The position numbers and the translations under genes were made by a program. From positions 65,078-97,234 of the forward strand of contig WFMZ01000071.1 of the NCBI GenBank assembly GCA_015484555.1: a stretch of DNA of 32,157 bases, read 5' to 3'. Source of the DNA: Hydrogenovibrio sp. (GTDB lineage Bacteria > Pseudomonadota > Gammaproteobacteria > Thiomicrospirales > Thiomicrospiraceae). The number at the start of each line of letters is the position of its first letter. Position 1 is the stretch's first letter. Positions 1,235 to 29,354 of this stretch are shown here, piece by piece. The notes under the pieces were generated by a model. That model made no database searches and was not told where the DNA came from. It saw only the letters and a program-made list of their open reading frames with translations.

Positions 1235-1252
1235 CCACCCCTGGCGATTTTT
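1235..1252 (+). repeat. Copy 1 of an exact 18-bp dispersed intergenic repeat
   Basis: The sequence CCACCCCTGGCGATTTTT lies between the gcvH terminator and the serS start. Identical 18-mers occur at 9234-9251 (same strand) and 29337-29354 (opposite strand). The flanks differ, apart from a nearby TA dinucleotide upstream. The function is unknown. Confidence 0.75.
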
Positions 1253-1282
1253 GCCTTTGATAAAGTGATTAATGTGTTTATT

Positions 1283-1306
1283 AAAAGCCTAGCGTACCTA
1301 AGGCTA
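1283..1306 (-). terminator. Probable intrinsic terminator after gcvH
   Basis: Read on the minus strand, arms AGCC/TAG and CTA/GGCT pair around a five-base loop with one bulged T, followed by TTTTAAT. The hairpin begins about 5 bases after the gcvH stop. The U-tract is short, so strength is uncertain. Confidence 0.4.
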
Positions 1307-1310
1307 AAGT

Positions 1311-1676
1311 TTAAGTAATGTTTTCGTAGCTGTCTTCGTCCATCAGTTCATCTAGCTGAGATTCATCGGACATCTCAACCTTGATAATCCACCCATCACC
1401 CATCGGGTCATCGTTGATATTTTCTGGTTCATCCTCTAAGGCATTATTCACTTCAACCACTTCACCAGAAATAGGCGCAATCAGTTCTGAAGCCGTTTTA
1501 ACCGACTCAATGGTACAAACCATTTCACCACGGGTAATTTGGCAACCAACTTCTGGGATATCAATAGACATTAAATCGCCCAACTGTTCTTGTGCAAAGT
1601 CGGTAATACCGATGGTAACGGTACCATCATCGTTTACTTTAGCCCAGCTGTGTTCATCACTATATTTAATCGTCAT
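1311..1676 (-). CDS. gcvH: Glycine cleavage system H protein (lipoyl carrier)
   Basis: Small lipoylated carrier that shuttles the aminomethyl group between the P, T and L proteins of the glycine cleavage system. In some bacteria it also serves as a lipoate or octanoate relay. The protein is 121 aa, slightly shorter than the usual 125-130. The lipoyl-lysine site is clear in ESVKTASELIAP, with K60 as the expected lipoylated residue. Upstream lie LGDLMSIDIPEVG and downstream GEVVEVN and GDGWIIKV, all typical of GcvH. The start has an AGGAAAT ribosome site. No gcvP or gcvT is in the window. The gene sits 27 bases behind crcB and is probably the last gene of the ftsK-lolA-rarA-crcB-gcvH unit. A lipoate-binding protein of the sulfur-oxidising sHdr type is an alternative, but no hdr genes are nearby. 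Confidence 0.93.
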   Translation of the reverse strand: MTIKYSDEHSWAKVNDDGTVTIGITDFAQEQLGDLMSIDIPEVGCQITRGEMVCTIESVKTASELIAPISGEVVEVNNALEDEPENINDDPMGDGWIIKVEMSDESQLDELMDEDSYENIT

Positions 1677-1703
1677 GGTTATTTCCTGAAGTTATTTTAA
1701 TTT

Positions 1704-2114
1704 TTATAAAGTTGAGGCATTTAAAAAGAAGTACTTGCCTACCGTTAAGCCAACCCACACCAATAAAATGGTGAGCATGACGTTGGCTGCAATATTTAAC
1801 ATCGCTTTTTCAATCGCGCCTTCTTGTAAATACAAAACGGTTTCAAAGGCGAAGGTTGAAAAGGTGGTAAATGCCCCTAAAAAACCGACTATTAAAAAGG
1901 CACGCCATTCTAAAGGAAGTTGGAATTTGTCTATCATTAGAATGGTTAGCAAACCAATTAAGAATGAACCCATTGCATTCACGGTTAAGGTGCCGTAGAC
2001 AAAATCTCGACCTAACCAGGCATACATTTGATTAGATACAATAAAACGAGATATGGCACCTAAAAAGCCCCCTGCACCCACTGCTAATACTTGAATAAGG
2101 TGAAAATGTTGCAT
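1704..2114 (-). CDS. crcB: Fluoride ion exporter CrcB/Fluc
   Basis: Dual-topology fluoride channel of the inner membrane that lowers cytoplasmic fluoride. The protein is 136 aa with four hydrophobic segments (about residues 5-25, 38-60, 70-92 and 103-128). Signature motifs are GGFLGAISRF near the N-terminus, GTLTVNAMGSFLIG, and the pore motif GFLGAFTTFSTFAFE, which carries the Phe and Thr/Ser track of Fluc channels. There is a single copy, consistent with a homodimer. The start codon lies one base beyond the rarA stop, so translation is probably coupled to rarA. No fluoride riboswitch is visible upstream, and none is expected within an operon. Confidence 0.95.
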   Translation of the reverse strand: MQHFHLIQVLAVGAGGFLGAISRFIVSNQMYAWLGRDFVYGTLTVNAMGSFLIGLLTILMIDKFQLPLEWRAFLIVGFLGAFTTFSTFAFETVLYLQEGAIEKAMLNIAANVMLTILLVWVGLTVGKYFFLNASTL

Positions 2115-2115
2115 C

Positions 2116-3438
2116 CTACTTCCTTCTTTTGTTAATGGCTATTTTATCAAGTTGGTTTAACCTAGCCAACTTCTCTGTAATTTTAATTTCTAAGCCGCGC
2201 TGAACTGGCTCATAGTAAGTTCTTTCTGGCATCTCTTCAGGGAAATACACTTCGCCCGCAGCATAGGCTTCTGGTTCATCATGTGCGTAGCGATAACCTT
2301 CGCCATAGTTTAAGTTTTTCATTAGCTTAGTGGAGGCATTTCGTAAATATAATGGCACTTCATCTGAACCCGCAATGGCGACATCTTTTAAAGCGGACTT
2401 ATAAGCCATGTAAACCGCATTAGATTTAGGAGCCACGGCTAAATAAATAGCGGCTTGTGCTAAGGCTAAATCACCTTCTGGAGACCCCAGTCGCTCATAG
2501 GCATCCGCAGCATTACAACAAACTTGTAATGCTTTTAGGTCTGCATTGCCAATTTCTTCACTGGCCATTCTAATTAAACGGCGAGATAAATAACGGGCAT
2601 CGACACCGCCATCTAACATTCTGGTTAACCAATAGAGTGCGGCATCTGGATCTGACCCTCGAACAGATTTATGCAGGGCGGAGACTTGATCATAAAAAGC
2701 TTCGCCCTTTTTATCAAAACGGCGAATACCACCCTGCAACACTTCTTTGCAATGCGCCATGGTTAACAGCATAGTAGGGACTTCTGCGCCTTCAATGTAG
2801 TCAGCAAAATCGATTGCTTGTTCTAATACATTGAGTAGTTTACGGGCATCGCCATCGGCATATTGAATAAGCGCTGTTTGTGCTTCTTCATCTACTGTTA
2901 CTTGTGCCGAAAGATCTTCAGACAAACAGGTTAAGCCTCTGACAAGCACCTTTGCTAAATCGCCTTCATCGAGTGTGCGCAACACATAGACTCGGGCACG
3001 AGACAACAAGGCATTGTTAAGTTCAAAAGAAGGGTTTTCGGTGGTAGCGCCTATAAAAATAAAGGTACCATCTTCAACGTAGGGTAAAAAAGCATCTTGC
3101 TGGGCTTTGTTAAAGCGGTGAACTTCGTCAACAAATAACAAAGTGCCTTGATCAAATTGCTCTCGCTGTTTTTGAGCTTGTTCTACAGCTTGACGAACCT
3201 CTTTAACCCCGTCCAAAACTGCGGACAAGTTAATAAATTGTAAATCGGTTTGTTTGGCAATTAACCTGGCTAAAGTAGTTTTACCCGTACCGGGAGGCCC
3301 CCAAAAAATCATGGAATGTAGAGACCCATTTTCTAGCATTTTAAACAAGGTTCGCCCTGGTGCAACTAGGTGAGGTTGCCCTACATAGTCAGCTAGTTGG
3401 GCTGGACGCAATCTGTCAGAAAGAGGAGAGTAAGACAT
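2116..3438 (-). CDS. rarA: Replication-associated recombination protein A (MgsA-type AAA+ ATPase)
   Basis: Clamp-loader-like AAA+ ATPase that acts at stalled replication forks. At 440 aa it has the normal family length. Walker A is GPPGTGKT (residues 47-54), followed by Walker B LLFVDEVHRFN (about 100-110), sensor 1 IGATTENPS (about 129-137) and an arginine-finger stretch LLSRARV (about 144-150). The C-terminal MgsA-type helical domain is recognisable from KSVRGSDPDAALYWL and RMASEEIGNADL. It lies 13 bases downstream of lolA, and the following crcB begins immediately. The order ftsK-lolA-rarA-serS is the same as in Escherichia coli. Confidence 0.97.
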   Translation of the reverse strand: MSYSPLSDRLRPAQLADYVGQPHLVAPGRTLFKMLENGSLHSMIFWGPPGTGKTTLARLIAKQTDLQFINLSAVLDGVKEVRQAVEQAQKQREQFDQGTLLFVDEVHRFNKAQQDAFLPYVEDGTFIFIGATTENPSFELNNALLSRARVYVLRTLDEGDLAKVLVRGLTCLSEDLSAQVTVDEEAQTALIQYADGDARKLLNVLEQAIDFADYIEGAEVPTMLLTMAHCKEVLQGGIRRFDKKGEAFYDQVSALHKSVRGSDPDAALYWLTRMLDGGVDARYLSRRLIRMASEEIGNADLKALQVCCNAADAYERLGSPEGDLALAQAAIYLAVAPKSNAVYMAYKSALKDVAIAGSDEVPLYLRNASTKLMKNLNYGEGYRYAHDEPEAYAAGEVYFPEEMPERTYYEPVQRGLEIKITEKLARLNQLDKIAINKRRK

Positions 3439-3451
3439 TTATATAAACAGT

Positions 3452-4093
3452 TTAATGACTAGGTAGGCCAATGACATCGACCCCTTTTGGTGGTATAAAC
3501 AAGAATTGAGATTCTGGGATTTTAGTATTCATTTCTATGTCTTCAAAAACAACCTTAGTTACGTTGCTAGACCCTTGATACATCCAAACTTGTGCCAGCT
3601 TGCCACCTTTAATAGCCACCTCTAAACTTTGAAAAAAAGTAGCTGTCTTAGGCACTAGATTATACCAACTTACACCCTTTTCTTTTTTACCCACAATCAC
3701 TTCAAAATTATTGGTTACAGATTCTTTATACAGCAACCACCTCAGAGGGAAGTCCGTTTGAATACTGTCTAAGGTTCTAACAGTAGCTTGATCAATATCG
3801 GAATCAAAAACCCATAGATCAACACCATCAGAAACAATTTCTTGATGTTCTGGTTGTTGGTAAACCCAAAATAATTTTCCGGGGCGCTCAATGACCACAT
3901 AGCCTTCTGAACGATTCATGTCAAACACTGATTCATCTGGTACCGTCTGTTTAAAATTAGCTTTAAAGGTGGAGAAGTGATTAACAAAATTATTTAAAGT
4001 GCTTAGTTTAGCTTTTTCTACTTGTTCTGCATGCGCCGAAAAAACCTGTAAAAACAAAATAATTGCAAAGCTTAGGGTGTGCATTTTTTTCAT
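3452..4093 (-). CDS. lolA: Outer-membrane lipoprotein carrier protein LolA
   Basis: Periplasmic chaperone that takes lipoproteins from the LolCDE complex to the outer membrane. The protein is 213 aa and starts with a Sec signal peptide (MKK, a hydrophobic core, and SAHA before E23). Family marks are FKANFKQ, ERPGKLFWVYQQPEHQEIVSDG with its conserved RPG and SDG, given here as ERPGKLFWVY and QQPEHQEIVSDG, then LWVFDSDIDQATV, DFPLRWLL and a C-terminal FIPPKGVDVIG. The length and the order of conserved blocks match LolA. It lies 12 bases after ftsK and 13 before rarA. Confidence 0.95.
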   Translation of the reverse strand: MKKMHTLSFAIILFLQVFSAHAEQVEKAKLSTLNNFVNHFSTFKANFKQTVPDESVFDMNRSEGYVVIERPGKLFWVYQQPEHQEIVSDGVDLWVFDSDIDQATVRTLDSIQTDFPLRWLLYKESVTNNFEVIVGKKEKGVSWYNLVPKTATFFQSLEVAIKGGKLAQVWMYQGSSNVTKVVFEDIEMNTKIPESQFLFIPPKGVDVIGLPSH

Positions 4094-4105
4094 GTATTTA
4101 AAACC

Positions 4106-6604
4106 TTATATTTCTGATTTTGGAACCAAGACATCTCTATTACCACTGCCTTTCATTGCTGAAACAATACCCGCGGCTTCCATAGCCTCGACAATTCTGG
4201 CGGATCTATTGTAGCCAATTTTAAACTGTCTTTGAACCAGTGAAACGGATACGCGATTATTATCTACCACAAAAGACACGACTTGATCGTAGAGTAAATC
4301 TTGTTCGGCATCTTCTGCAATAGAATCATTGTCACTGCCACCCGTTGCTTGCGTCACACTTTCTAAATACTGTGGTTCTCCCTGAGATTTTACAAATTCT
4401 GCGACTCTGTGAACTTCTTCATCTGTCATATAGGCACCATGTACACGCTTAGGAGAGCCACTTCCTGGTGGCATAAAGAGCATGTCACCCATGCCGAGTA
4501 ACTGTTCGCCGCCACCTTGGTCTAAAATAGTACGGGAATCTATTTTTGTATTCACCATAAAAGAAATTCTAGTGGGAATATTGGCTTTAATTAAACCGGT
4601 AATGACATTAACCGAAGGTCTTTGGGTGGCTAGAATAAGGTGAATCCCCGCGGCACGTGCTTTTTGAGCAATACGAGCAATAAGCTGTTCAACTTCTTTA
4701 CCCACGACCATAATCATGTCGGCAAATTCATCAACCACTACCACAATATAAGGCAGTGACTCTAAGGTAGGTGGTTGTTCACCCAGTTCATTACCAAAAT
4801 TTGCAGCTTGAGCATAAAGTGGATCGACGATTGGTTTGCCATCATCAATGGCACCCTGTACCTTGGCATTAAAGCCTGCAATATTTCGAACCCCTAATTT
4901 GGCCATTAGCTGATAACGTCTATCCATTTCAAACACACACCAACGCAAGGCATTAGCGGCTTCTGACATATCGGTTACCACAGGGGTTAGTAAGTGAGGA
5001 ATGTCTTCGTAAACGGAGAGCTCAAGCATTTTAGGGTCGATCATAATCATGCGAACTTCTTCAGGCGTACTTTTATACAGCATGCTTAAAATCATGCTGT
5101 TTACACCCACCGACTTACCTGAACCAGTGGTTCCTGCTACCAGTAAATGAGGCATTTTGCCGATATCTGCAACCACGGTTTTACCCGCAATGTCTTTACC
5201 CAATGCAATAGTTAAAGGGGAGGTTGAATTCTGAAATTCAGCAGATGAAATAACATCGCGTAGCGTGACCATGTCTCTAATATCATTTGGAATTTCAATG
5301 CCAATAACCGCCTTACCTGGAATAATATCAACAACTCGAACAGATTTAACCGATAGAACGCGCGCTAAATCTTTAGCCAAACCACTGATACGGCTGACTT
5401 TGATGCCTGCCGCGGGCAAAACTTCAAAACGAGTGACTACTGGACCAGGCTGGACTGCTTCAACCTTGGCTGATACGCCAAAATCTTGAAGACGCTGTTC
5501 TAATAATAAGGATAAATCCGTCAATTCATCTTCTGAAAACCCTTCAGTGCCTTCTGGAACAGGATCAAGTAACTCTACGCTAGGCAACTCGCCAGATTCT
5601 TGTAAAGGAACAGTGGCATTAGAAGACTCTTTCTTGCCCACTTTAACACTAGAACCTTGACTGGAATTGATATCACTTTTATCTAACGTTGAGCCTGAAA
5701 TACTAGGCTCAAAATCCTCTTTCTTAACGCTGGCAGGTGACTTGTCATTGTTTTTTGTAATATTTGTTGCAGTTTTCTTTGTTTTTTCGGCCACCTGCTT
5801 CGCACGCTCTTTGACCTTACCCGCCACATTTAAAATCCCTTTTGAATAGGCTTTTTTGTCCACAGTATCTTTAGGCTTTGAAATGGTTTTTGCTTTTGAT
5901 TTAGTATTATCGGCCAGAGCTTGAACGTGAGGTTCAAGAAAGTGGATAAGCTTCCAAGTTAACATACCGGTATAGTCTACGATCGTTAGCCAAGAAAAGC
6001 TGCTGAACAGGCTAAAAGCGATGATACTTAAAATTAATAAAATAAGAGTAGTCGCCAATAAATCTACTGAACCGACTAACTGGGTACTTATTTCATAACC
6101 TACCACGCCGCCGGCTGAATAAGGCAATTGGATAAAAGACTGAACCGGATCCATATACAAACTCGCCAGACCTGCCCCAGCAACAATTAAGATTAACAAA
6201 CCTGACATGCTCAATACAAAACGGACATAGTCCATGCCAGAGCCTTCTCTAATTCTTAAGGTCACCATACCTGCCATTAGCACACCAAAAGGCACTAAGA
6301 ACGCAAATACACCAAATATATACAACAAGAAAGAGGCAAACCAGGCACCCGTTCGGCCACCATAGTTTAAGACGGTCTTAGTATCTGAGACCGTCTCAAA
6401 ACCTGGGTCAGCGGGGTGATAGCTAAACAGAACTAAAAAAAGAAAGAAGGCTAAGCCAATACAAACCAAAACCAAAGTGTCTTTTAAGACCCAGTTAAAC
6501 TGACCCGAACGACGTTTTTTTTCAACACCTTCATTTTTAGGAGCACCTTCAACTAAAGTTTTGCCAGTTTTTTTAATTAAATTTTTGGCTAGAGCCTTTT
6601 TCAT
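4106..6604 (-). CDS. ftsK: DNA translocase FtsK
   Basis: Septum-anchored DNA pump that segregates chromosome termini and activates XerCD at dif. The protein is 832 aa. The N-terminus (about residues 40-205) has four to five membrane helices. A basic, Ser/Lys-rich linker follows (about 230-340), shorter than in E. coli. The alpha domain precedes the motor domain, which has Walker A GTTGSGKS (491-498), Walker B IVVVVDEFADM (620-630), and LATQRPSVNVITGLIKANIP (659-678). The winged-helix gamma domain (about 770-828), which reads KOPS sequences, is intact, ending NRDVLVPKSEI. It is the first gene of a tight unit with lolA and rarA and is divergent from trxB across 200 bases. The lrp gene found at this position in E. 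coli is absent. Confidence 0.97.
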   Translation of the reverse strand: MKKALAKNLIKKTGKTLVEGAPKNEGVEKKRRSGQFNWVLKDTLVLVCIGLAFFLFLVLFSYHPADPGFETVSDTKTVLNYGGRTGAWFASFLLYIFGVFAFLVPFGVLMAGMVTLRIREGSGMDYVRFVLSMSGLLILIVAGAGLASLYMDPVQSFIQLPYSAGGVVGYEISTQLVGSVDLLATTLILLILSIIAFSLFSSFSWLTIVDYTGMLTWKLIHFLEPHVQALADNTKSKAKTISKPKDTVDKKAYSKGILNVAGKVKERAKQVAEKTKKTATNITKNNDKSPASVKKEDFEPSISGSTLDKSDINSSQGSSVKVGKKESSNATVPLQESGELPSVELLDPVPEGTEGFSEDELTDLSLLLEQRLQDFGVSAKVEAVQPGPVVTRFEVLPAAGIKVSRISGLAKDLARVLSVKSVRVVDIIPGKAVIGIEIPNDIRDMVTLRDVISSAEFQNSTSPLTIALGKDIAGKTVVADIGKMPHLLVAGTTGSGKSVGVNSMILSMLYKSTPEEVRMIMIDPKMLELSVYEDIPHLLTPVVTDMSEAANALRWCVFEMDRRYQLMAKLGVRNIAGFNAKVQGAIDDGKPIVDPLYAQAANFGNELGEQPPTLESLPYIVVVVDEFADMIMVVGKEVEQLIARIAQKARAAGIHLILATQRPSVNVITGLIKANIPTRISFMVNTKIDSRTILDQGGGEQLLGMGDMLFMPPGSGSPKRVHGAYMTDEEVHRVAEFVKSQGEPQYLESVTQATGGSDNDSIAEDAEQDLLYDQVVSFVVDNNRVSVSLVQRQFKIGYNRSARIVEAMEAAGIVSAMKGSGNRDVLVPKSEI

Positions 6605-6762
6605 TTTTTAACTACTTGTCGGTTTGAATTAAGTCATAATAACTAGAAATAATGAATTCAGTTAATTGATAGCGAAGCACCATTGAATTATTTAAATGAA
6701 CCCATATATAATAATTTAAAGGGGAAAGCTACTCAGTACCGAAAAAACTGCTAGAATTTTAG

Positions 6763-7764
<1,002 letters not shown>

Positions 7765-7833
7765 GACTTTCTTTTAGTAAAAAAGATACAAATTTCAATG
7801 ACTAAAACTTATTTCAATAATAAAGGAAAGAAA

Positions 7834-8538
7834 ATGAAAATTATTACCACCACTTTAATGGCAACAACACTGGCTTTCAGTCAAGTTGCTTTCGCAAATG
7901 CTAGCCTAACCACTCCGGCTCAAAAAGCCAGTTATACCTTAGGTGTAGACTTGGCAAAAAACTTTAACAAGCAAGGAATCAAAGTCGATACTGACGCTTT
8001 AGTTGCTGGCATGAATGATGTGTTAAAAAAACAAAAACTTCAACTAACTGACGCTGAAATGCATAAGGCTATTGAAGATGTTAAGAAAATAGTGATTCAA
8101 AAGCAAATGGCTGCACAGAAAGTTATTGCTGAAAGTAATGCCGCTAAGGGTGCTAAATTTTTAAGTGAAAATAAAAAGAAAAAAGGTGTTAAAGTCCTGC
8201 CTAATGGATTGCAATATATTGTACTAACAAAGGGTAAAGGAAAGTTTGCAACAGCTGATGACTTTATTACCGTACATTATCGAGGTACTTTAATTAATGG
8301 TACTGAGTTCGATAGTTCTTATAAAAGAGGGGCTCCTATTGAATTTAAAATGTCGAACGTTATTAAAGGCTGGAGAGAAGCTTTAAAGAAAATGAAGCCA
8401 GGTTCTAAATGGAAGATTTTTGTACCCCCTGCTTTAGCTTATGGTGAACGTGGCGCAGGCGGAACTATTGGTCCAAATGAAACACTAATATTTGACATTG
8501 ATTTAATTTCTACCAGTAAAACTAAGCCTTTACACTAG
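7834..8538 (+). CDS. Periplasmic FKBP-type peptidyl-prolyl isomerase (Mip/FkpA-like)
   Basis: Predicted prolyl cis-trans isomerase and chaperone exported to the periplasm. The start at 7834 is preferred over an in-frame ATG at 7798. It has AAAGGA at the right distance and gives a canonical signal peptide (MKIITTTLMATTLAFSQVAFA, cleavage near residue 22). The mature protein has an N-terminal helical dimerisation domain (about 23-115, starting with LTTPAQKASYTLGVDLAKNF) and a lysine-rich connector. The FKBP fold follows (about 120-228): VLPNGLQYIVL, ITVHYRGTLINGTEFDSSY, VIKGWREALKKMKPG, FVPPALAYGERGAGG and IGPNETLIFDIDLI. The FKBP active-site residues Tyr, Asp, Trp and Tyr are visible. It could be called fkpA, fklB or mip; the sequence alone does not decide. 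Confidence 0.92.
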   Translation: MKIITTTLMATTLAFSQVAFANASLTTPAQKASYTLGVDLAKNFNKQGIKVDTDALVAGMNDVLKKQKLQLTDAEMHKAIEDVKKIVIQKQMAAQKVIAESNAAKGAKFLSENKKKKGVKVLPNGLQYIVLTKGKGKFATADDFITVHYRGTLINGTEFDSSYKRGAPIEFKMSNVIKGWREALKKMKPGSKWKIFVPPALAYGERGAGGTIGPNETLIFDIDLISTSKTKPLH

Positions 8539-8542
8539 GCAT

Positions 8543-8572
8543 AAAAAAACCCTAGACAACATGTCTAGGGTT
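8543..8572 (-). terminator. Strong intrinsic terminator read on the minus strand
   Basis: An 11-bp perfect stem, AACCCTAGACA (8548-8558) with TGTCTAGGGTT (8562-8572), has a three-base loop. A run of seven A on the plus strand (8543-8549) makes a U-tract only for minus-strand RNA. On the plus strand the stem is followed by GGTATC, so it should be a poor terminator for the isomerase gene next to it. This points to a minus-strand transcript from the right. Confidence 0.7.
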
Positions 8573-8653
8573 GGTATCAAATAGATACTTAAATGGAGGA
8601 GTAGTCGAAATCTAATTCAACAATGTGTGCTATTCTACTCGACGATATAATTT
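8543..8653 (-). ncRNA. Candidate small RNA of about 110 nt, antisense side of the isomerase 3' gap
   Basis: A sigma-70-like promoter and a strong terminator bracket this stretch on the minus strand, and no reading frame is visible in it. Near the 5' end GTCGAGTAG can pair with a later CGAC or CTACTC. It can thus form two alternative stems around an A/T-rich loop. Immediately after comes CTCCTCC, which is complementary to strong Shine-Dalgarno sequences. No known family was recognised: there is no 6S-like bubble and no run of GGA motifs as in CsrB. The start at about 8653 is inferred from the -10 box. Both the existence of the RNA and its role are inference. Confidence 0.4.
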
Positions 8654-8659
8654 TATACT

Positions 8660-8835: not shown

Positions 8836-9117
8836 ATGTATTCAATGAAACCCATTTTAGTCGTTTATGCCCTTATTTTAAGCCTAGGAATTTTAACGCT
8901 GGCGACACAGCTCTATTATTTCGCAAATATTGCCGGATTTATTTCTGCTATTGGGTTTATGCTTATCTTTTTCAAGGACCCTAAAAAGGACCTTAATTCA
9001 GAAGAATTAGCACACATCAATAAAATGAAAAAATACTGGTATATTGTATTTGGAACAGGCTTCTTTTTTAGCTTAATATTAGGTAGCTTATGGAATAACC
9101 ATTTAGGTGGTATGTAA
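8836..9117 (+). CDS. Small three-helix membrane protein of unknown function
   Basis: I do not recognise this 93-aa protein. It has three hydrophobic segments: about residues 6-25 (ILVVYALILSLGILTLATQL), 29-47 (FANIAGFISAIGFMLIFF) and 68-86 (YWYIVFGTGFFFSLILGSL). A charged loop (KDPKKDLNSEELAHINKMKK) lies between the second and third. The start has AAGGA eight to nine bases upstream, which supports real translation; a second ATG three codons in is an alternative start. It stands alone on the plus strand between the isomerase and the convergent flagellar operon. It is probably an inner-membrane protein. No motif ties it to the flagellum. Confidence 0.65.
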   Translation: MYSMKPILVVYALILSLGILTLATQLYYFANIAGFISAIGFMLIFFKDPKKDLNSEELAHINKMKKYWYIVFGTGFFFSLILGSLWNNHLGGM

Positions 9118-9233: not shown

Positions 9234-9251
9234 CCACCCCTGGCGATTTTT
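9234..9251 (+). repeat. Copy 2 of the 18-bp dispersed intergenic repeat
   Basis: An exact CCACCCCTGGCGATTTTT lies in the convergent gap between the small membrane protein gene and the fliN terminator, 15 bases beyond that terminator's U-tract. It has the same orientation as copy 1 and the opposite one to copy 3. Confidence 0.75.
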
Positions 9252-9265
9252 AGGGTTGGCAGACA

Positions 9266-9298
9266 TAAAAAAAGCAGTTCTCTTTCAAGAACTGCTTT
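9266..9298 (-). terminator. Intrinsic terminator closing the fliK-fliN operon
   Basis: On the minus strand an 11-bp perfect stem, AAAGCAGTTCT with AGAACTGCTTT and a six-base loop, is followed by seven T. It lies 45 bases after the fliN stop codon. This indicates that the operon ends at fliN rather than continuing into fliOPQR. Confidence 0.85.
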
Positions 9299-9342
9299 CT
9301 GATATTAACATAATCACTTAGTGAATGACTGAGCTAAATATT

Positions 9343-21498: not shown

Positions 21499-22884
21499 TT
21501 AAACAACATCTAAACCCTGTTCTTTAAACTTTGCTAGCTTATAACGCAGTGTTCTAGGACTAATATTTAAAGCTTCTGCCGTTTTTTGACGGTGCCCTGC
21601 ATTAGCTTTTAATGTGTCTAAAATAATTTGTACTTCACGCTCTTTTAAATCCAAAGGCAATTCTGCTTCGCTTAAAGAGGATACAGGCTCTTTTACAGCA
21701 GAAATTTTAAGCTCCGTAACCAAAGAGTCTGGCGAACTCATAGTTTCATCCTGGCTAGAAAAGCCATCATCCAACAAAATATCTGTCAACTGAATGGTGT
21801 CACCAGACATCATCACTAACGCTCGCTGAATAACATTGTCTAACTCTCGAATATTACCTGGCCAAGTATAGTCCAACAGGGCTTTCATTGCTGGTGCTGA
21901 CAACATTGGCTCTACCCTTTGTGTTCCGCAATGACGTTGCAATAACTTTTCTGCAATCGCAGCAATATCTTTTTTACGATCTCTTAAAGGTGGTAGCTTT
22001 AAAGGGAATACATTCAATCGGTAAAATAAATCTTCTCTAAACTCTCCTTTTGAAATAGCATTTTTCATATCAATATTAGAAGCACTTAACACCCGAACAT
22101 TTAATGCAATTGTTTTTGTACTACCAATACGTTCAACTTCCATCTCTTGGATTACTCGCAGTAGCTTAGCCTGTAAATCAACTTTCATTTCCCCTATTTC
22201 ATCCAAGAAAATGGTTCCACCTTGTGCCTGCTCAAACTTACCTGGCATAGCTTTTAAAGCCCCCGTAAAGGAACCTTTTTCATAGCCAAACAATACTGCT
22301 TCTAGCATATTTTCAGGGATAGCAGCACAGTTAATCGCAATAAATGGCTCTTTCTTACGCTCTGATTGGTTGTGTAAATAACGCGCTAAAACTTCTTTAC
22401 CCGTACCACTTTCACCAGACAACATAACAGAGGCATTGCTTCCCGCTACTTTTTTAGCCATGGCTTTTAGTTGAATCATAACTGGTTCAGCTACCACAAA
22501 ATCTTCTTCATCTGAAGCATCTCGATAAAAATAAGCCTTTGCTTTTTCAACCAATACATCCGCTTCAAAAGGCTTTAAAATGTAATCTACCGCACCTGAT
22601 TTAATGGCTTCAACGGCCTGCTCAACTGTACCGTAAGCAGTCATCAAAACAATGGGTAAATAAGGCTTAATAGCCCGAATACGTTTCATTAAGTCATAAC
22701 CATCCATACTGCCATCCATTCGGATGTCAGTAAACACCATAGCAATTTCATCATCAAGCGCAACCAAGGCATCTTCTGCACAGCTAACCGCAACGACCTT
22801 AAATTGATTCAACTCTAGCGTATCGACCAGCGCTTCTTGCAGTTTACTATCATCTTCAACAATGAGTATTTTAGCCACGCTCAT
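21499..22884 (-). CDS. fleR: Sigma-54-dependent flagellar response regulator FleR/FlrC
   Basis: Two-component activator that turns on middle flagellar genes together with the kinase FleS. An open frame extends to 22959. The ATG at 22882-22884 is preferred because it has AAAGGA upstream and overlaps the fleS stop as ATGA, giving 461 aa. The receiver domain (1-120) has the acidic pair DD11-12, the phospho-acceptor D53 (FTDIRMDG) and K104. The AAA+ domain has Walker A GESGTGKE (157-164), the sigma-54 contact loop as GSFTGA rather than GAFTGA (204-209), and Walker B TIFLDEIGEM. A Fis-type helix-turn-helix closes the protein (HRQKTAEALNISPRTLRYKL). fliE follows downstream behind its own promoter. 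Confidence 0.95.
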   Translation of the reverse strand: MSVAKILIVEDDSKLQEALVDTLELNQFKVVAVSCAEDALVALDDEIAMVFTDIRMDGSMDGYDLMKRIRAIKPYLPIVLMTAYGTVEQAVEAIKSGAVDYILKPFEADVLVEKAKAYFYRDASDEEDFVVAEPVMIQLKAMAKKVAGSNASVMLSGESGTGKEVLARYLHNQSERKKEPFIAINCAAIPENMLEAVLFGYEKGSFTGALKAMPGKFEQAQGGTIFLDEIGEMKVDLQAKLLRVIQEMEVERIGSTKTIALNVRVLSASNIDMKNAISKGEFREDLFYRLNVFPLKLPPLRDRKKDIAAIAEKLLQRHCGTQRVEPMLSAPAMKALLDYTWPGNIRELDNVIQRALVMMSGDTIQLTDILLDDGFSSQDETMSSPDSLVTELKISAVKEPVSSLSEAELPLDLKEREVQIILDTLKANAGHRQKTAEALNISPRTLRYKLAKFKEQGLDVV

Positions 22885-24077
22885 AAGCTTTCCTTTACTT
22901 GATATAAAGGAAGCGTTAATACGAATGTTGCCCCTTCCCCTTGTATAGATTTTACCCACGCTTCACCATCATGCGCGTCTGCGACGGCTCTAACAACAGC
23001 CAAACCTAAGCCTGTTCCCTGAGCTCGACGGGTATAAAATGGTTCAAAAATTTTAGTCATAACCTCTTCATTTAAGCCTGGACCATTATCAGATACCTTA
23101 ATATTAATGCAAGGAATATGCCGACTGCTTTTATGAAATTTTTCTTCTATTGCAATATGGATTTCCGCTTGTTCTGGAATAACATCCATCGCATTAATAA
23201 TTAAATTCTGCAAGGCTGTTTGTAAAGCATCAATGTCTCCTAGCACCTGAAAACTTTCATCAAAATTTGCTACCGTAAGAATGCTATGTGATTGTGCTAC
23301 TCGGTCTTCTACTGACTGAGTTAAACGCTGAATCAACTCTACTATCATCACAGGCTTATCAAGAGCCTTTCCGCCTTTAGCGTATTGCAACATGTCTTTA
23401 ACCAGGCTTTCTAGATGATGCAAACTGTTAACAGATTTATCAACAAACTTCATGCGCTTATCATCATCTAGATGATCTGAATTTAGCTGAGAAACATACA
23501 ATAAAGCAGAGGCTAAAGGGGTTCTAATTTGGTGAGCTAACGAAGCCGTCATTTCACCCATAGAACTTAAACGTTGGTGACGGTCAATATGTTGCTGTAA
23601 ATTTCTGGCATCCGTCACATCCTGAACCAATAGTATTCGACCAATTAAAGGAGAGTTTTGATCTTCATTAGACAACGTTAGCGGCGTTTCTGAAAGTTGG
23701 AAAACCTGCTCATTATGCGTCATAAAAGTCCCTGCATTATTACTCGTCAGAAACACATTTCGTGTGACCTCAACCCAAGGTCTATGACGAGCATCTGCAC
23801 CTAACATAGCAACTGCGGCTGGATTCATATCTATCACAACATCATCTAAATCCAAGACAATCACCGCGGCAGGTAATAAATTCAATAACTGCTCCAAGCG
23901 CTCACCTACTCGGTGCTTTTCGATATTACTTTCCACTAACTGGCGCTGCAAATCTTCTACTTGGTTTTGTAAAGATTCATAAGCAAAGGTTAGCTGCGTA
24001 GACGTTTGGTTAAAAAGCTCAAATGCATCTTCTAGTTCTGCCAACCTTTTTTGCTCTAGTTCAGTCGAGTCAGTCAT
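22881..24077 (-). CDS. fleS: Flagellar sensor histidine kinase FleS/FlrB
   Basis: Cytoplasmic sensor kinase that phosphorylates FleR. The protein is 398 aa with no membrane helix. An N-terminal coiled coil (about 5-60) is followed by a PAS-like domain (about 63-158, AAVIVLDLDDVVIDMNPAAV). The HisKA helix has the phospho-acceptor H182 in GEMTASLAHQIRTPLASALL. The ATPase domain has the N box NLIINAMDVIPE, G1 VSDNGPGLNEEV and G2 GTGLGLAVV. It starts inside the fleQ stop codon (one-base overlap TGATG) and overlaps fleR by four bases, so the three genes should be co-translated. Confidence 0.95.
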   Translation of the reverse strand: MTDSTELEQKRLAELEDAFELFNQTSTQLTFAYESLQNQVEDLQRQLVESNIEKHRVGERLEQLLNLLPAAVIVLDLDDVVIDMNPAAVAMLGADARHRPWVEVTRNVFLTSNNAGTFMTHNEQVFQLSETPLTLSNEDQNSPLIGRILLVQDVTDARNLQQHIDRHQRLSSMGEMTASLAHQIRTPLASALLYVSQLNSDHLDDDKRMKFVDKSVNSLHHLESLVKDMLQYAKGGKALDKPVMIVELIQRLTQSVEDRVAQSHSILTVANFDESFQVLGDIDALQTALQNLIINAMDVIPEQAEIHIAIEEKFHKSSRHIPCINIKVSDNGPGLNEEVMTKIFEPFYTRRAQGTGLGLAVVRAVADAHDGEAWVKSIQGEGATFVLTLPLYQVKESL

Positions 24078-25156
24078 CAGTTTAAATTAAACTTTCTAAT
24101 CTTTTCAACTAAAGTCGTTCTATTGGTTTGCAATAGCTTAGCCGCCTTAGAAACATTGCCTTCCGTTTGTACCAATGCTTTTTGAATTAACTGCACTTCC
24201 ATTTCAACTAGGTAAGACTTCAAATCAAGACCATCTTCTAAGCTAGGGTAGCGAGGCTTTGGCTCTTCCGGTAAGCCTTCCACCGAAGATTTCTCTTGAG
24301 GAATTGACTGTTTAGGTTCGTCACTATCGTTAAGTTCCTCTTCTGGCGAAGAATGCTCGGCTACTTTCAAAATGATATCAGAGGTTAGTTCAACCTGATA
24401 ACGTTCCGGTAGGTCATCATAATCAACCCTTAGCCCCGGAAATAAAATAGATAATCTTTCAGCAACATTTCCTAATTCACGAACGTTACCAGGCCAAGGA
24501 TATTGCTGAAGGGCAATCATTGCCTTTTCAGTAATATTGGGTATTTCTCGATTCATGCCTTTAATTTTATTAAACATGAAGTTAAGTAAATCGGGAATGT
24601 CTTCGGGGCGCTCTTTTAAAGAAGGGATTTCAATAGGGAATACATTTAAACGATAGAATAAATCTTCACGGAATTTACCTTCTGCAATATTGTCTTCTAA
24701 GTTTCGATGTGTGGCGGCAATCACTCTTACATCACACTCAAAACTCTTATTACCACCTACTCGTTCGTAAATACGCTCTTGCAACACGCGCAATAACTTA
24801 ACTTGCATAGGTAAGGGCATATCACCAATTTCATCTAGAAAAATAGAACCTTGTTCAGCCATTTCAAAACGGCCTTTTCTGGCTGTGATGGCACCTGTAA
24901 AAGCCCCTCGCTCATGACCAAATAATTCGGATTCTAATAATTCACCCGGAATAGCACCACAGTTAATAGGAACAAAGGTTTTAGTGGCACGATTAGAAAC
25001 TGCGTGAAGACATTGCGCAACCACTTCTTTACCCGTTCCAGACTCGCCTAAAATAAGGACAGAGGCATCTGTTTTTGCGACTTGTAAAATAAGTTTTTTG
25101 ACTTGTTGCATAGCTTTACTATTACCAACAAGGGAGGATAATGCATCTTGAGCCAT
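24077..25156 (-). CDS. fleQ: FleQ/FlrA-like flagellar master regulator lacking the N-terminal domain
   Basis: Sigma-54 activator expected to sit at the top of the flagellar hierarchy. The protein is only 359 aa, against about 490 for Pseudomonas FleQ or Vibrio FlrA. It begins at the AAA+ domain (SSLVGNSKAMQQVKKLI), and a TAG stop is directly before the ATG, so no N-terminal receiver-like domain is encoded. Walker A is GESGTGKE (37-44), the sigma-54 loop is an intact GAFTGA (84-89) and Walker B is IFLDEIGD (105-112). The C-terminal Fis-type helix-turn-helix, GNVSKAAKLLQTNRTTLVEK, is very FleQ-like. The positions of FleQ R185 and N186, which bind c-di-GMP, are Q48 and C49 here, and the LFRS motif reads ALSS. 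A strong sigma-70 promoter precedes it. The ribosome site is weak. Confidence 0.9.
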   Translation of the reverse strand: MAQDALSSLVGNSKAMQQVKKLILQVAKTDASVLILGESGTGKEVVAQCLHAVSNRATKTFVPINCGAIPGELLESELFGHERGAFTGAITARKGRFEMAEQGSIFLDEIGDMPLPMQVKLLRVLQERIYERVGGNKSFECDVRVIAATHRNLEDNIAEGKFREDLFYRLNVFPIEIPSLKERPEDIPDLLNFMFNKIKGMNREIPNITEKAMIALQQYPWPGNVRELGNVAERLSILFPGLRVDYDDLPERYQVELTSDIILKVAEHSSPEEELNDSDEPKQSIPQEKSSVEGLPEEPKPRYPSLEDGLDLKSYLVEMEVQLIQKALVQTEGNVSKAAKLLQTNRTTLVEKIRKFNLN

Positions 25157-25190
25157 CTATTTACCGTCTTTATTGAAAGATTTAAGCTCC

Positions 25191-25219
25191 TTTATAAAGG
25201 GTTTTTCTACTGATGTCAA
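25191..25219 (-). promoter_or_regulatory. Sigma-70 promoter for fleQ-fleS-fleR
   Basis: On the minus strand, a perfect TTGACA (25214-25219) is followed after 17 bases by TATAAA (25191-25196), 35 bases before the fleQ start. This is the best housekeeping promoter seen in the window. It lies in the 112-base gap after fliT, so the master regulator is transcribed independently of the fliD operon. Confidence 0.75.
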
Positions 25220-25268
25220 AATTTTGGCTTTTTTTTAGTGGAAAGAGCGCTTATTAGGGGATAAAAGA

Positions 25269-25568
25269 CTATTTTAGGTAGGATTGAACGGCTTTGCTTA
25301 AGCGACGATTGGCATTGAAATCTTCTTCAACTTTTTGCATTTGTTTTTTAATTAGGCGTTGAATTGTGTCAACGTCATCAATTAAAGATTGAATAGATAT
25401 CTCTAGCTCAGGAGATTTATTTTCTGCTAAAAAATGGTCAGCTACACATTTATCTACTTCTTGTGTCCAAATGGGGTGTAACTCTTCAAATGTCTCCCAG
25501 CGTCCTTGCTCCGCATGCAACAATAAAATTTTAGATTGATTTAAACATTGTAATATTTGGTTATTCAT
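25269..25568 (-). CDS. fliT: Probable FliT-like flagellar export chaperone
   Basis: Small 99-aa, all-helical acidic protein (start MNNQILQCLNQSKILLLHAE) in the place where fliT, fleP or flaI-type chaperones are found, directly after fliS and before fleQ. By analogy it would bind FliD and escort it to the export gate. Sequence conservation in this family is low, so the name rests mainly on size, helix content and position. A conserved DVDTIQRLIKKQ segment near the middle fits FliT-type proteins. Confidence 0.6.
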   Translation of the reverse strand: MNNQILQCLNQSKILLLHAEQGRWETFEELHPIWTQEVDKCVADHFLAENKSPELEISIQSLIDDVDTIQRLIKKQMQKVEEDFNANRRLSKAVQSYLK

Positions 25569-25623
25569 CTAACACCTTAGCCGCTTATAAAAAACTTTAT
25601 CTTACATCACTTTATCTCAGAAA

Positions 25624-26070
25624 TTAGTTTTTGATCTTTTTAATCGTCTCAATCTGAGCTCGAGAGGCATGTTTAAAATTGTCCGGCATTAACTCCCAAG
25701 CTTCACGTAATTCTCTAACAAGACCACTAACTTCTTCTAAGATAATTTCATCATTTTTGGTACTCGCTTCTAACAGTTTTCGGTTGATATAATTATAGAG
25801 GGCTTCATAATTTTCTGAAGCTTCTCCGCCATTTTTCATATCTAAACCAGAACGCAAAGAACCCACAATTAAAACCACTTTATTTAGCTTCTCCGCTTTT
25901 AATTGATAATCTTTACGCTGCATCGCACCCTTTCCTAAGGCAAGATTATCCATAATACCATCATAAAGCATGCTAACCAGTTTATAAGGCGTTGCATTTT
26001 CCATACCCGTTTCAACAGAGGTTTGCTGATACTGGTTTAGAAATTTTTGTTTCATCATCTGGTTCATCAT
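25624..26070 (-). CDS. fliS: Flagellin export chaperone FliS
   Basis: Cytoplasmic chaperone that binds the C-terminus of flagellin and prevents early polymerisation. The protein is 148 aa. Diagnostic parts are YQQTSVETGMENATPYKLVS, then MLYDGIMDNLALGKGAMQ, and EALYNYINRKLLEAS. The start has AGGAGA four bases upstream. Three further in-frame ATGs follow closely. It lies between fliD and the fliT-like gene. Confidence 0.95.
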   Translation of the reverse strand: MMNQMMKQKFLNQYQQTSVETGMENATPYKLVSMLYDGIMDNLALGKGAMQRKDYQLKAEKLNKVVLIVGSLRSGLDMKNGGEASENYEALYNYINRKLLEASTKNDEIILEEVSGLVRELREAWELMPDNFKHASRAQIETIKKIKN

Positions 26071-26104
26071 ATTTCTCCTGAAATCCTATTTTTAGTTAAG
26101 GTTG

Positions 26105-28108
26105 CTACTTACCACTAGTGTTGTTACCCAATGAAGCTGCTAATGATCGACCAGTACTATCCATTTGGGCTAGTAGTGTCTGCAAAGAACCAAACTCAAG
26201 TCGATACTTTAACTCAAGTCGGTTATAACGCGCATCCACTTTTATTGTTTCTGCTGAAATTTCCTTTAAACGAGTATTAATATTAGTCAGTCTATTACCG
26301 ATAAGACCTGTTTTTTTATCTAAGAATCCATCAAATAAATTACTTAAACGATCCGCATAACCTCGGTTAAAGTCTATCGTCCCTCTTGCACCAGTGGTAT
26401 TACCTTCTATTTTAAACTCTAGCCCTTTAGGAGAGCCAGCAAGAACTGAATTGATTTTAACATTCTGACCTGTTCCAATAAAAGTATAAAAAGCACCATT
26501 TTTTTCCAATGAACCTTGTACATCTGCACCAGAAGTTTCTGCTGTTACACTGAAGCCAGATACTCCAGAGGTTAAGAAATTACCCGACGACAATGCTATC
26601 TTAGAAGCAGAGCCATATTTTTCAGAGTTCATCGCAAACGTTTTGGTTACCGCATCATATCCCACGGCTACTCTGCCACCAACTGTTGCAACATTACTGT
26701 CGTTATTAATCACCCTAGCTATTTCTTTGGCTAAATTGTCTTCCGTATAAGAACCCGAAGACAGCACTAAATCTAAAGTGCTATTACCATCGATACTCAC
26801 TTTGAACGTATTATTGGTACCATCAATAGTAATCCCTGTTCCTGCAACCGCTGCTCCAGCAACAGAAGCTTGTGCCGCTGCCGCATTAATTTCAACGTTA
26901 AAAATTCCTTCTACAGTATCTTTAGTAGAACCTGTATAAGAGATTAAATTATCGGAAGCAGAAGCATTTGCCGCAAATAGCTTTCCCACTGCTTTTGGGT
27001 TATTCGTTAAGGCCGTCGTTAACATACTTTGGTCTAACTTCAAAGTACCATCTAAGGCTGAAGTAATCCCAATATCAGCTAAAGACTGTACTGAACCAGA
27101 TAAACCTGGAATGGAGTCAATCATAGCCGATCTAATATCCGACTTCACCGTTCTTAAAGCCGAATCACCTTGTAATTTACCCGTAACAGATTGTTTATCT
27201 TTAGGGGAATCATAAGAGCCTAAATCTTTAATAATAGAGTCCAAAGCATTAAACAACTGAACAAAATCACCCACACCTTTAGAAAGCCCTTTCGTGTCCT
27301 CTGTAATTTCGATGGTTTTAGGCTTACCAATATCTGCTGATTTCAGGTTAAGCGTAACGCCTTGAATAACACCGGCAATATTGTTACCTGAATTATGAAT
27401 AGTCAGTCCATTCACCACAATCGTTGAGTCTTGAGCAGCAACCGTTTCATTCATATTAGCTGTAATTAACCTAGATAACCCTAGTGCATCAGTATTATTT
27501 CCATCCGTATCACCAGTAGTAGACACATCAATCGAATTACCCGCACCAGAGTTAGTGGCCGAAAACATCAACTTATAACCCGTTCCTACATTCACAACAG
27601 TGGCATTCACACCTATATTTGCATTATTCACGGCATCTTGAATACCCCTTAAGGAGTGATTAGTTGCATCAATCGTAATAGAAGAGGTCGCGCCACCTAC
27701 ATTAAAATTCAGTGTACCTTCACCAACCACACTGTTGGTGGAGGTAAATGCTGTTTGGGTTGCTAAAGTATGCGCTGTCGCCAGCGCTTGCACCTCGATT
27801 TGATACAATCCATTGCTTGGCTTACCTGTTACCGTTGTGCCAATAACCGTTCCATCAGATGAGCTAGAAGATTTCTTTTGAAAATTAGAAATATCCGTTA
27901 AGGTGGCTACTTGTGTTTTAAAGGAATTAAAGGCGAACTTAAGTGTATCAAACCCGGTTAACTCACTGTTAAACTTGGTTTCGGATCGAGCAATGTTAGC
28001 TCGTTTAGAGGAAACATCTGCCTCTGCAAGTGTTTTTGACATACTTGCAACATCAAACCGACTCGCACCTAATGAATTTAGAATAGTATTACCAATATCA
28101 TTTGCCAT
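26105..28108 (-). CDS. fliD: Flagellar filament cap protein FliD
   Basis: Cap at the filament tip that folds incoming flagellin. The ATG at 28106-28108 is preferred over an in-frame one at 28144: it has GGAGA six bases upstream and gives the normal start MANDIGNTILNSLGASRFDV. The protein is 667 aa, clearly longer than the usual 450-500. Terminal coiled coils are present (about 20-80 and 605-665, ending in LEFGSLQTLLAQMDSTGRSL). The middle contains two flagellin-IN-like units, about residues 98-195 (NGLYQIEVQALATAHTL) and 398-510 (VEGIFNVEINAAAAQASV), which suggests an internal duplication in the exposed domain. A sigma-28 promoter lies 75 bases upstream. Confidence 0.94.
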   Translation of the reverse strand: MANDIGNTILNSLGASRFDVASMSKTLAEADVSSKRANIARSETKFNSELTGFDTLKFAFNSFKTQVATLTDISNFQKKSSSSSDGTVIGTTVTGKPSNGLYQIEVQALATAHTLATQTAFTSTNSVVGEGTLNFNVGGATSSITIDATNHSLRGIQDAVNNANIGVNATVVNVGTGYKLMFSATNSGAGNSIDVSTTGDTDGNNTDALGLSRLITANMNETVAAQDSTIVVNGLTIHNSGNNIAGVIQGVTLNLKSADIGKPKTIEITEDTKGLSKGVGDFVQLFNALDSIIKDLGSYDSPKDKQSVTGKLQGDSALRTVKSDIRSAMIDSIPGLSGSVQSLADIGITSALDGTLKLDQSMLTTALTNNPKAVGKLFAANASASDNLISYTGSTKDTVEGIFNVEINAAAAQASVAGAAVAGTGITIDGTNNTFKVSIDGNSTLDLVLSSGSYTEDNLAKEIARVINNDSNVATVGGRVAVGYDAVTKTFAMNSEKYGSASKIALSSGNFLTSGVSGFSVTAETSGADVQGSLEKNGAFYTFIGTGQNVKINSVLAGSPKGLEFKIEGNTTGARGTIDFNRGYADRLSNLFDGFLDKKTGLIGNRLTNINTRLKEISAETIKVDARYNRLELKYRLEFGSLQTLLAQMDSTGRSLAASLGNNTSGK

Positions 28109-28182
28109 AATCGTTCTCCAGTCTGAGTATTTAGGCCGCAGCATTTATTATATTTTTTATGGAAGCACTCTGCTACTTAAAT

Positions 28183-28209
28183 ATATCGACTGCTATCATT
28201 AAAACTTAA
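28183..28209 (-). promoter_or_regulatory. Sigma-28 (FliA) promoter for fliD-fliS-fliT
   Basis: On the minus strand, TTAAGTTT (28202-28209), 11 bases and GTCGATAT (28183-28190) match the consensus TAAAGTTT-N11-GCCGATAA at 7/8 and 6/8, with exact spacing. The start codon lies 75 bases downstream. Confidence 0.7.
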
Positions 28210-28299
28210 CTCAAAAATTAAAGTTAAAGAACTTTTTGTTCTATTTACCCACTAATCTTAGCATTTTTAAAATTAAGCTAATTTCACACCAAGTCCTCA

Positions 28300-28332
28300 A
28301 AAAAAACAAAAACCCCGAAAAAACGAGGTTTT
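28300..28332 (-). terminator. Intrinsic terminator of flagellin gene 1
   Basis: On the minus strand, AAAACCTCG and CGGGGTTTT form a nine-pair stem with one mismatch and a six-base loop. It is followed by T-rich sequence with a run of eight T. It lies 20 bases after the flagellin stop and just upstream of the fliD promoter, separating the two units. Confidence 0.8.
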
Positions 28333-28351
28333 AAATAAAGTGGACGGATAA

Positions 28352-29179
28352 TTACTTAAGCAAACCTAATACAGTTTGAACCTGTTGGTTCGCTTGTGAC
28401 AGCATACTCATACCAGCTTGTTGTAGAACTTTAGTTCTTGCCAAGGTTGCACTTTCTTTAGCAAAGTTAGTATCTTGAATCTGACTTCTTGCAGACTTAA
28501 TATTTTCATTCACATTCTGTAAGTTAGAAATGGTGTATTCCATACGGTTTTGTATCGCACCATACCCTGCTCGGGCTGTTGTGACTGCACTTAACGCAGC
28601 GTCAATCTGTGTCATCACAGTCAGAGCACTCGCAGCATTACTAATCGTTCCTGACACGCCCAATGTTGATGCATCCATCGCAACCAATGAAATCTTGATC
28701 GTATTTCCTGCGCCCGTTTCCCAACCAGCATGGATAGAGACAGGACTAGAGCCAACAGACAAGCTCATTAAGTCTACGCCATTAAATTTCGTAGTTGATG
28801 CAATACGGTTGATTTCTATTTTAAGCTGTGTAACTTCTACATCCATTTGCTTACGCTGTGCTGGACTGTAGGTTTCGTTAGTTGCCTGCACCGCTAGCTC
28901 ACGAACACGCTGAAGCATATTCACCGTTTCTTGAGCAGCACCATCGACAGTTTGTACTAGTGAAATACCGTCGTTGGTATTACGAATCGCCATATCTGTA
29001 CCATCAATCTGTGTTGTCATTCCTGTTACAACCGCTTTACCAGCGGCATCATCTGCTGTTTTGTTAATACGTAAACCAGAAGTTAAACGCTCCATCGCTG
29101 TCGACATTTCACGAGCTGAACGATCTAATAAACGAACTGCAGTATCTGCAGGTATATTTGTGTTGATTACCATTGACAT
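28352..29179 (-). CDS. Flagellin (copy 1)
   Basis: Filament subunit secreted by the flagellar export system. At 275 aa it is a short flagellin with the conserved D0/D1 helices and only a small variable middle. The N-terminus is MSMVINTNIPADTAVRLLDR and the C-terminal region contains SATLARTKVLQQAGMSMLSQ, ending in QTVLGLLK. It is about 93% identical to copy 2 (18 differences in 275 by eye). The start has GGAG with seven bases to the ATG and a sigma-28 promoter upstream. Which copy should be called fliC or flaA cannot be decided here. Confidence 0.97.
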   Translation of the reverse strand: MSMVINTNIPADTAVRLLDRSAREMSTAMERLTSGLRINKTADDAAGKAVVTGMTTQIDGTDMAIRNTNDGISLVQTVDGAAQETVNMLQRVRELAVQATNETYSPAQRKQMDVEVTQLKIEINRIASTTKFNGVDLMSLSVGSSPVSIHAGWETGAGNTIKISLVAMDASTLGVSGTISNAASALTVMTQIDAALSAVTTARAGYGAIQNRMEYTISNLQNVNENIKSARSQIQDTNFAKESATLARTKVLQQAGMSMLSQANQQVQTVLGLLK

Positions 29180-29247
29180 GATAAATCTCCTTTGTGTGTG
29201 TATGTATCTTTATAATTACGAGGCACTCTTTGCTGCCTTCAATCTAT

Positions 29248-29273
29248 ATATCGGCAATAACCAGAACTCTTTA
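29248..29273 (-). promoter_or_regulatory. Sigma-28 promoter of flagellin gene 1
   Basis: On the minus strand, TAAAGAGT (29266-29273), 10 bases and GCCGATAT (29248-29255) match the FliA consensus with a spacer one base shorter. The start codon lies 69 bases downstream, giving a leader of roughly 60 bases with a short CA-repeat just before the ribosome site. Confidence 0.7.
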
Positions 29274-29336
29274 GTTTTTATTGCCATTTTTTTGACATAA
29301 TCAAAAAATAAACGTTTTTAAAGGGTTTTGAAGGGT

Positions 29337-29354
29337 AAAAATCGCCAGGGGTGG
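29337..29354 (-). repeat. Copy 3 of the 18-bp dispersed intergenic repeat
   Basis: An exact CCACCCCTGGCGATTTTT on the minus strand lies between the flagellin 1 promoter and the terminator of the flagellin pseudogene. Its orientation is opposite to copies 1 and 2. It is about 20 kb from copy 2 and 28 kb from copy 1. Confidence 0.75.

Follow-up and report, generated by a model that had tools for sequence, protein, structure and literature searches.

An abundant 18-bp motif of Hydrogenovibrio with dialects in related genomes: a candidate DNA uptake sequence

The stretch of DNA analyzed here, referred to as the window, comprises 32,157 bp of contig WFMZ01000071.1 of a Hydrogenovibrio species and includes the genes gcvH and fliN and two flagellin genes. 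Three of its intergenic gaps contain exact copies of the 18-mer CCACCCCTGGCGATTTTT, which probably forms the central word of an uptake sequence resembling the uptake signal sequence (USS) of the Pasteurellaceae and the DNA uptake sequence (DUS) of the Neisseriaceae. The three copies, their occurrence in both orientations and their location in non-coding DNA had been described in a first-pass annotation and were confirmed (Table 1). The view that such an 18-mer should not recur by chance was borne out as well, since 100 dinucleotide-preserving shuffles of the window yielded no match, even with three mismatches allowed. Two further claims of that annotation held in part. A simple scan of the window detected terminator-like sites near two of the copies and listed nothing next to the copy at 1235, and the flanks described as unrelated were indeed only 27-42% identical over 60 bp, with the qualification that, across the genome, weak conservation extends some 10 bases past the T run. 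A word search of the window revealed neither Chi of E. coli nor the Pasteurellaceae USS, as had been stated before, nor the Neisseria DUS; the letters used for USS and DUS also appear in the literature. Additionally, the window contained no Rfam family at gathering score and no tRNA gene.

The genome to which the window belongs (G000, the own genome) is available as a draft assembly of 1,919,990 bases in 73 contigs with a completeness of 94%. Allowing up to two mismatches, the 18-mer was found at 274 places of this genome (139 forward and 135 reverse), whereas the reversed 18-mer, which served as control pattern, was not found at all. The first-pass annotation had proposed that hundreds of intergenic copies would speak for a genome-wide signal; the copies proved to be neither limited to three nor mostly coding, as, in a sample of 530 kb, 62 of the 86 sites that could be classified were intergenic. 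The density in this sample (79 sites with up to two mismatches, 15 per 100 kb) agreed with that of the whole genome (14 per 100 kb). In a 432-kb sample consisting of the window and 20 stretches of 20 kb, most of which were taken from contigs with copies already known, the mismatch classes 0, 1, 2, 3 and 4 comprised 38, 14, 11, 6 and 1 places, compared with means of 0, 0, 0, 0.35 and 2.2 for shuffled words. This sharply bimodal mismatch spectrum indicates a defined motif and not the tail of chance matches. The column frequencies of 68 sites provided the consensus RM-CCACCCCTGGCGATTTTT-RVSTTTSAAA, in which a G+C core and a T run are followed a few bases on by a second T-rich block; the 18-mer is accordingly the core of a motif of about 30 bp. 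The top k-mers of the own-genome sample corresponded to the motif itself rather than to USS or DUS words. A scan of contig collections yielded single matches to the 18-mer in at least five unrelated organisms, which are uninformative on its distribution, and the exact 18-mer had no match in IMG/VR, meaning only that the viral contigs collected there are without this dialect.

Table 1. Coordinates of motif copies and of other features mentioned in the text
Feature	Position	Strand	Context
Exact CCACCCCTGGCGATTTTT copy	window 1235-1252	+	between gcvH (Pfam PF01597) and the open reading frame 2-1088 (-); downstream of the former and upstream of the latter
Exact CCACCCCTGGCGATTTTT copy	window 9234-9251	+	convergent gap before fliN (-; FliMN_C match); other flank a small open reading frame, 8836-9117 (+), without Pfam match
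Exact CCACCCCTGGCGATTTTT copy	window 29337-29354	-	upstream of flagellin gene (-; Pfam)
Degenerate copy, 3 mismatches	window 692-709	-	inside open reading frame, sense orientation
Genome-wide consensus of about 30 bp, RM-CCACCCCTGGCGATTTTT-RVSTTTSAAA, full extent at first copy	window 1233-1262	+	column frequencies, 68 sites
Terminator-like sites from simple scan	window 9269-9300; 29419-29449		near the second and third exact copies
Tandem flagellin genes	window 28352-29179; 30178-31005		equal length
Degraded flagellin-like remnants	window ~29520-30060; ~31880-31950		between and after both flagellin genes
Y1 (RAYT-like) transposase gene	G000 contig 27, L160:14337-15047		inverted ends GGGTAGCGTCCCCATTT; directly beside degenerate motif copy
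Three prepilin-motif proteins	G000 contig 27, L160:8978-14213		one cluster
MSHA-type genes	G000 contig 34, L224:3716-11050		MshL and neighbours
Repeat array	G004 contig 1, 1-20000 (L069)		~27-28 repeat copies in 20 kb

With up to two mismatches, the 18-mer was present in 8 of 37 searched genomes including the own genome, and the other seven held only 1 to 6 places each. The relatives, from which the 18-mer is nearly absent, contain sister words instead. According to k-mer counts of sampled stretches, the sister word CCAGGCCTGG occurs in G002, G003, G005, G008, G009 and G013, and profiling of its flanks in five of these genomes (G003 was left out) gave the imperfectly palindromic sequence AAAAcgaCCAGGCCTGGtcgTTTT. 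Further sister words were TTACCAGGCCTGGTAA in G048, CCCCAACCTGGYAGATTTT in G001 and G010, and CCCCAGCCTGGCAGATTTT in G004; one 20-kb stretch of the latter genome, a repeat array that is perhaps CRISPR-like and that swamped the k-mer counts, was left out. The family thus contains at least five dialects, some of which differ by one or two bases, and all of them have CCTGG in common and likewise keep the T run. The commonest, GGCC dialect holds two CCTGG sequences, and every dialect holds at least one.

Within the genus, the pattern CCASSCCTGGNNNTTTT gave 121-482 matches each in 8 of 11 genomes, where palindromic places can be counted on both strands, and none in G001, G004 and G010. The pattern CCCARCCTGGYAGATTT, which was searched within the genus only, gave 331, 278 and 274 matches in these three genomes and 0-1 in the other eight. 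The sampled genomes contained 10-30 copies of their own dialect per 100 kb and 0-0.8 copies of foreign dialects; each dialect-bearing genome among them therefore uses its own word almost exclusively. Beyond the genus, CCASSCCTGGNNNTTTT was matched in 36 of 58 genomes of the family, many of them with few copies, and this pattern is restricted to the family, as there were at most two matches in each of 271 genomes outside it (of 274 across the class).

The origin of the copies was deduced from pairs of related genomes. Between G009 and G002, which are 90% identical where aligned, 20 sites were identical and 7 differed (the counts were halved for palindromic sites, which occur twice in the output). 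Six of the differing sites were distinguished by one to four substitutions without gaps, the seventh lay beside an ambiguous one-base gap, and no clean insertion was detected among them. Between G001 and G010, 8 sites were identical and one differed at a C/T position. These data indicate that copies arise by point substitution in place. At 7 of 25 sampled and alignable cross-dialect sites, moreover, the dialect of the partner genome was present within five columns, compared with 0.12 sites expected by density, although this number is an upper view, a caveat for the uptake reading, as Blast may align two CCTGG words with each other where gaps are little conserved. Five of the seven sites lie in open reading frames (ORFs) of the own genome, and two represent the ybeY gene in two close relatives. 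The word CCAGGCCTGG spans the PPGL codons of ybeY in 8 of 19 readable sequences from the relatives and the own genome (loci L202-L220; 3 of 22 sequences without the anchor peptide were dropped). The own-genome ybeY has CCAGGGGTGG at these codons and reads PPGV, and the residue in the 18 other sequences is Leu in 16, Val in G016 and Ile in G020. With the Val of the own YbeY, the word has possibly left its mark on a protein.

This mode of origin bears directly on the idea of a mobile element, which the first-pass annotation had offered beside an uptake signal and a protein-binding site. Repetitive extragenic palindromic (REP) sequences and REPINs, or repeats resembling miniature inverted-repeat transposable elements, are spread by transposases of the RAYT type (REP-associated tyrosine transposases), and they likewise form hundreds of short, mostly intergenic copies that are sometimes paired as inverted repeats. 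The own genome contains two Y1_Tnp genes, one of which matches the model of REP-associated transposases below the cut-off (67 versus 80 bits) and adjoins a degenerate motif copy. The inverted ends of this gene differ from the motif, however, and Y1 transposases were found in only 7 of 18 genomes, being absent from 11 genomes, among them all seven genus genomes G004-G010 and thus the motif-rich G005-G009. Moreover, the differences between relatives are substitutions in gapless flanks, and many sites lie within intact ORFs, frequently so in the relatives. A mobile element is contradicted by the point substitutions and by the absence of a REP-type transposase from these seven genomes; this candidate was dropped and is regarded as highly improbable.

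The placement of the copies was determined with a simple gene caller in the 530-kb own-genome sample, using sites with up to three mismatches. Among 87 sites, 62 were located between ORFs, 24 inside ORFs and one at an edge. Since ORFs cover 86% of the sample, the intergenic sites are crowded into the remaining 13.6%. Their distribution over gap types was uneven: convergent gaps, 11.6 kb in total, held 18 sites, tandem gaps (41.0 kb) held 39 and divergent gaps (13.9 kb) held 5; the enrichment of convergent over divergent gaps was significant (p 0.0025, or p 0.019 with close pairs counted once). Inside ORFs, 20 of 24 sites were in antisense orientation (p 0.0015) and all three reading frames were used. 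Sites inside ORFs were numerous in relatives (for example 23 of 36 in G048, 16 of 29 in G002 and 17 of 37 in G009; G013 was omitted owing to its N stretches). Where adjacent sites were separated by more than 100 bases, their directions agreed in 22 cases and were opposite in 28 cases; judged from this neighbour orientation, the motif is without polarity.

The main rival to the uptake reading holds that the motif is bound in the cytoplasm by an architectural or global regulatory protein, which would coat or organize the chromosome; the dialects would then reflect co-evolution of the protein and its sites. Hundreds of sharply conserved sites with a G+C core and A/T flanks, located predominantly between genes in the own genome, would be expected of such a protein, and a protein-binding site is true in the broad sense. 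The strongest point in its favour is that the GGCC dialect has dyad symmetry, a trait that would suit a dimeric chromosome-binding protein and that counts against the uptake reading, being unlike USS and DUS. On the other hand, the many sites inside ORFs of G048, G002 and G009, the avoidance of divergent, promoter-bearing gaps in the own genome and the lack of replication polarity among neighbouring sites are at odds with it, and for several hundred sites to change wholesale inside a single genus, a drive beyond ordinary binding would probably be needed. This explanation is therefore considered unlikely, although it deserves more weight than any other alternative.

The lack of polarity also bears on recombination or segregation signals of the Chi or KOPS (FtsK-orienting polar sequence) type and on words related to restriction and modification. 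Such signals can be abundant short words, and the sequence CCTGG present in every dialect corresponds to the Dcm-type site CCWGG, so that a link of the dialects to methylation is possible. A directional function is difficult to reconcile with the balanced strands (139:135) and the random orientation of neighbours, and a two-fold symmetric dialect is unable to carry direction. This class of explanations is accordingly very improbable.

Eleven close inverted pairs of the motif were detected, eight of which are oriented to form a hairpin with a T tail and have 11-15 bases between the copies. Four of these eight pairs were folded, and the energies for both strands ranged from -35 to -51 kcal/mol; inverted pairs are thus sometimes predicted to form terminator-like hairpins. 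Together with the enrichment after genes, these pairs could be taken to mean that the motif is nothing more than a repeated intrinsic terminator stem. However, 65 of the 87 sites lie outside close pairs and 24 lie inside ORFs, and termination requires neither one fixed 18-mer nor genome-wide dialects, which leaves this explanation with hardly any probability, the lowest among the alternatives considered. With respect to the window itself, the third exact copy lies upstream of one of the tandem flagellin genes, between and after which degraded flagellin-like remnants can be read from the sequence.

The hundreds of copies, the dialects with a common core, the point mutation in place, the location between genes and in terminator pairs, and the orientation bias within genes argue together for a DNA uptake sequence with the 18-mer as its core, a reading to which we assign a probability of about 0.74. 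Among the interpretations offered by the first-pass annotation, the uptake signal is thus the best supported. With respect to the machinery that such a system would use, ComEC was detected in all 32 relatives' genomes, in 30 of them over the cut-off, and as an open frame over the cut-off in the own genome, while ComEA was matched in 15 of 16 genomes (13 of 16 over the cut-off). The sole secretin match of the own genome was MshL (251 bits; cut-off 250.2), located next to MshE/GspE-like and GspF-like genes of the mannose-sensitive haemagglutinin (MSHA) type. A separate contig carries a cluster of three prepilin-motif proteins. Enclosed in this cluster are genes for a histidine kinase and for a response regulator whose helix-turn-helix is of the Fis type. 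MshL with its neighbours, the prepilin cluster and ComEC suggest an MSHA-type type IV filament and a DNA channel in the own genome; no canonical competence pilus was demonstrated. Pilins of the GspH/FimT type were considered and rejected; they occur in 2 of 32 genomes, both of them dialect-free, and lie beside other pseudopilin genes, and they were read as part of type II secretion.

Besides the symmetry of the GGCC dialect, several observations weigh against an uptake sequence. Among 14 control genomes, 12 likewise had a ComEC match (E. coli is one of them), in 5 cases over the cut-off, and the presence of ComEC is therefore no proof of competence. The own-genome ComEA remained below the curated cut-off (47.9 versus 53.1 bits), PilQ was over the cut-off in none of 19 genomes, and the pilins compared were mostly acidic in their soluble part, with none standing out as receptor. 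No dialect was recognized in the sampled parts of G012 (40 kb) and G018 (120 kb), although both genomes contain ComEC. The copy density of about 1 per 7 kb is at the low end for uptake sequences, USS and DUS usually being present in thousands of copies. Finally, when motif copies were counted in 20-kb stretches, under-dispersion was seen in five of six genomes tested initially (variance/mean 0.31-0.43, with 1.07 in G048; Fisher p 1e-4), but this even spacing weakened to p 0.004 when all ten sampled genomes were included (G001, G004, G005 and G013 added), among which G009 and G002 have sites common by descent, and to p 0.13 in six genomes whose stretches were mostly picked regardless of the motif. 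Even spacing therefore carries little weight; for the USS of Haemophilus, passages of PMC7811141 describe the distribution both as uneven and as relatively even.

If the motif is an uptake sequence, the word would act as a self-recognition tag, of which each genome maintains a few hundred copies. We infer that a surface receptor of the uptake machine, most likely a minor pilin, would bind the word on double-stranded DNA, that the stiff T runs past the core might help the DNA to bend into the secretin, and that ComEC would pass one strand inside for recombination. Because tagged DNA would be preferred in uptake, copies born by mutation would spread by transformation and would accumulate at the least harmful places, that is, between genes, after stop codons and in tolerant codons. 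A shift in the taste of the receptor might then be followed by the words of the whole genome, giving rise to dialects. A more far-reaching proposal, which is tentative and in our estimate rather doubtful, regards the motif as a third code for self-DNA, which would have evolved independently among free-living chemolithoautotrophic gammaproteobacteria. Its dialects would alternate between a perfect palindrome and asymmetric words, all built on one half of CCTGG and T run, and it would be read by an MSHA-type pilus feeding ComEC and not by a PilQ-type system.

A third case, if true, would point to a further origin of sequence-policed sex among bacteria, with unrelated letters and in non-pathogenic environmental species, and would provide a new place to study why it evolves, how dialects shift, how receptor and sites change jointly and whether species are isolated by their words. 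The dialects of this family, some of them one or two bases apart, would form a natural series for the analysis of receptor co-variation, and the word, if confirmed, could serve as a practical tag for Hydrogenovibrio genetics.

Uptake sequences are attributed to two families, the Pasteurellaceae and the Neisseriaceae, in passages of PMC7811141 and PMC1626085, and the passages of PMC1852404 and PMC13020248 on the use of uptake-sequence pairs in terminators name only these two known families. Among the top-ranked open-licence full texts, a set without preprints and most subscription papers, none mentioned uptake sequences in connection with Hydrogenovibrio, Thiomicrospira, Thiomicrorhabdus or the Piscirickettsiaceae. 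The motif described here resembles the USS (core AAGTGCGGT) as a short genome-wide word that occurs in dialects, as a G+C core followed by 3' A/T tracts (passages of PMC1626085), in its preference for one orientation within genes (PMC2346458) and in its inverted pairs with terminator-like orientation, USS pairs being used in terminators (PMC1852404). It differs from the USS in its unrelated letters, its longer strict core, its lower density, the presence of one palindromic dialect and its occurrence in another family; that its commonest dialect has dyad symmetry is a novelty with respect to both USS and DUS. DUS (core GCCGTCTGAA) lack flanking A/T motifs, are denser and have a known receptor, ComP, and their letters are otherwise unrelated to those of the present motif. 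The likeness to DUS lies in dialects that follow the species around a fixed centre, CTG there and CCTGG here, and in the existence of a few family members without a dialect (passages of PMC3630211).

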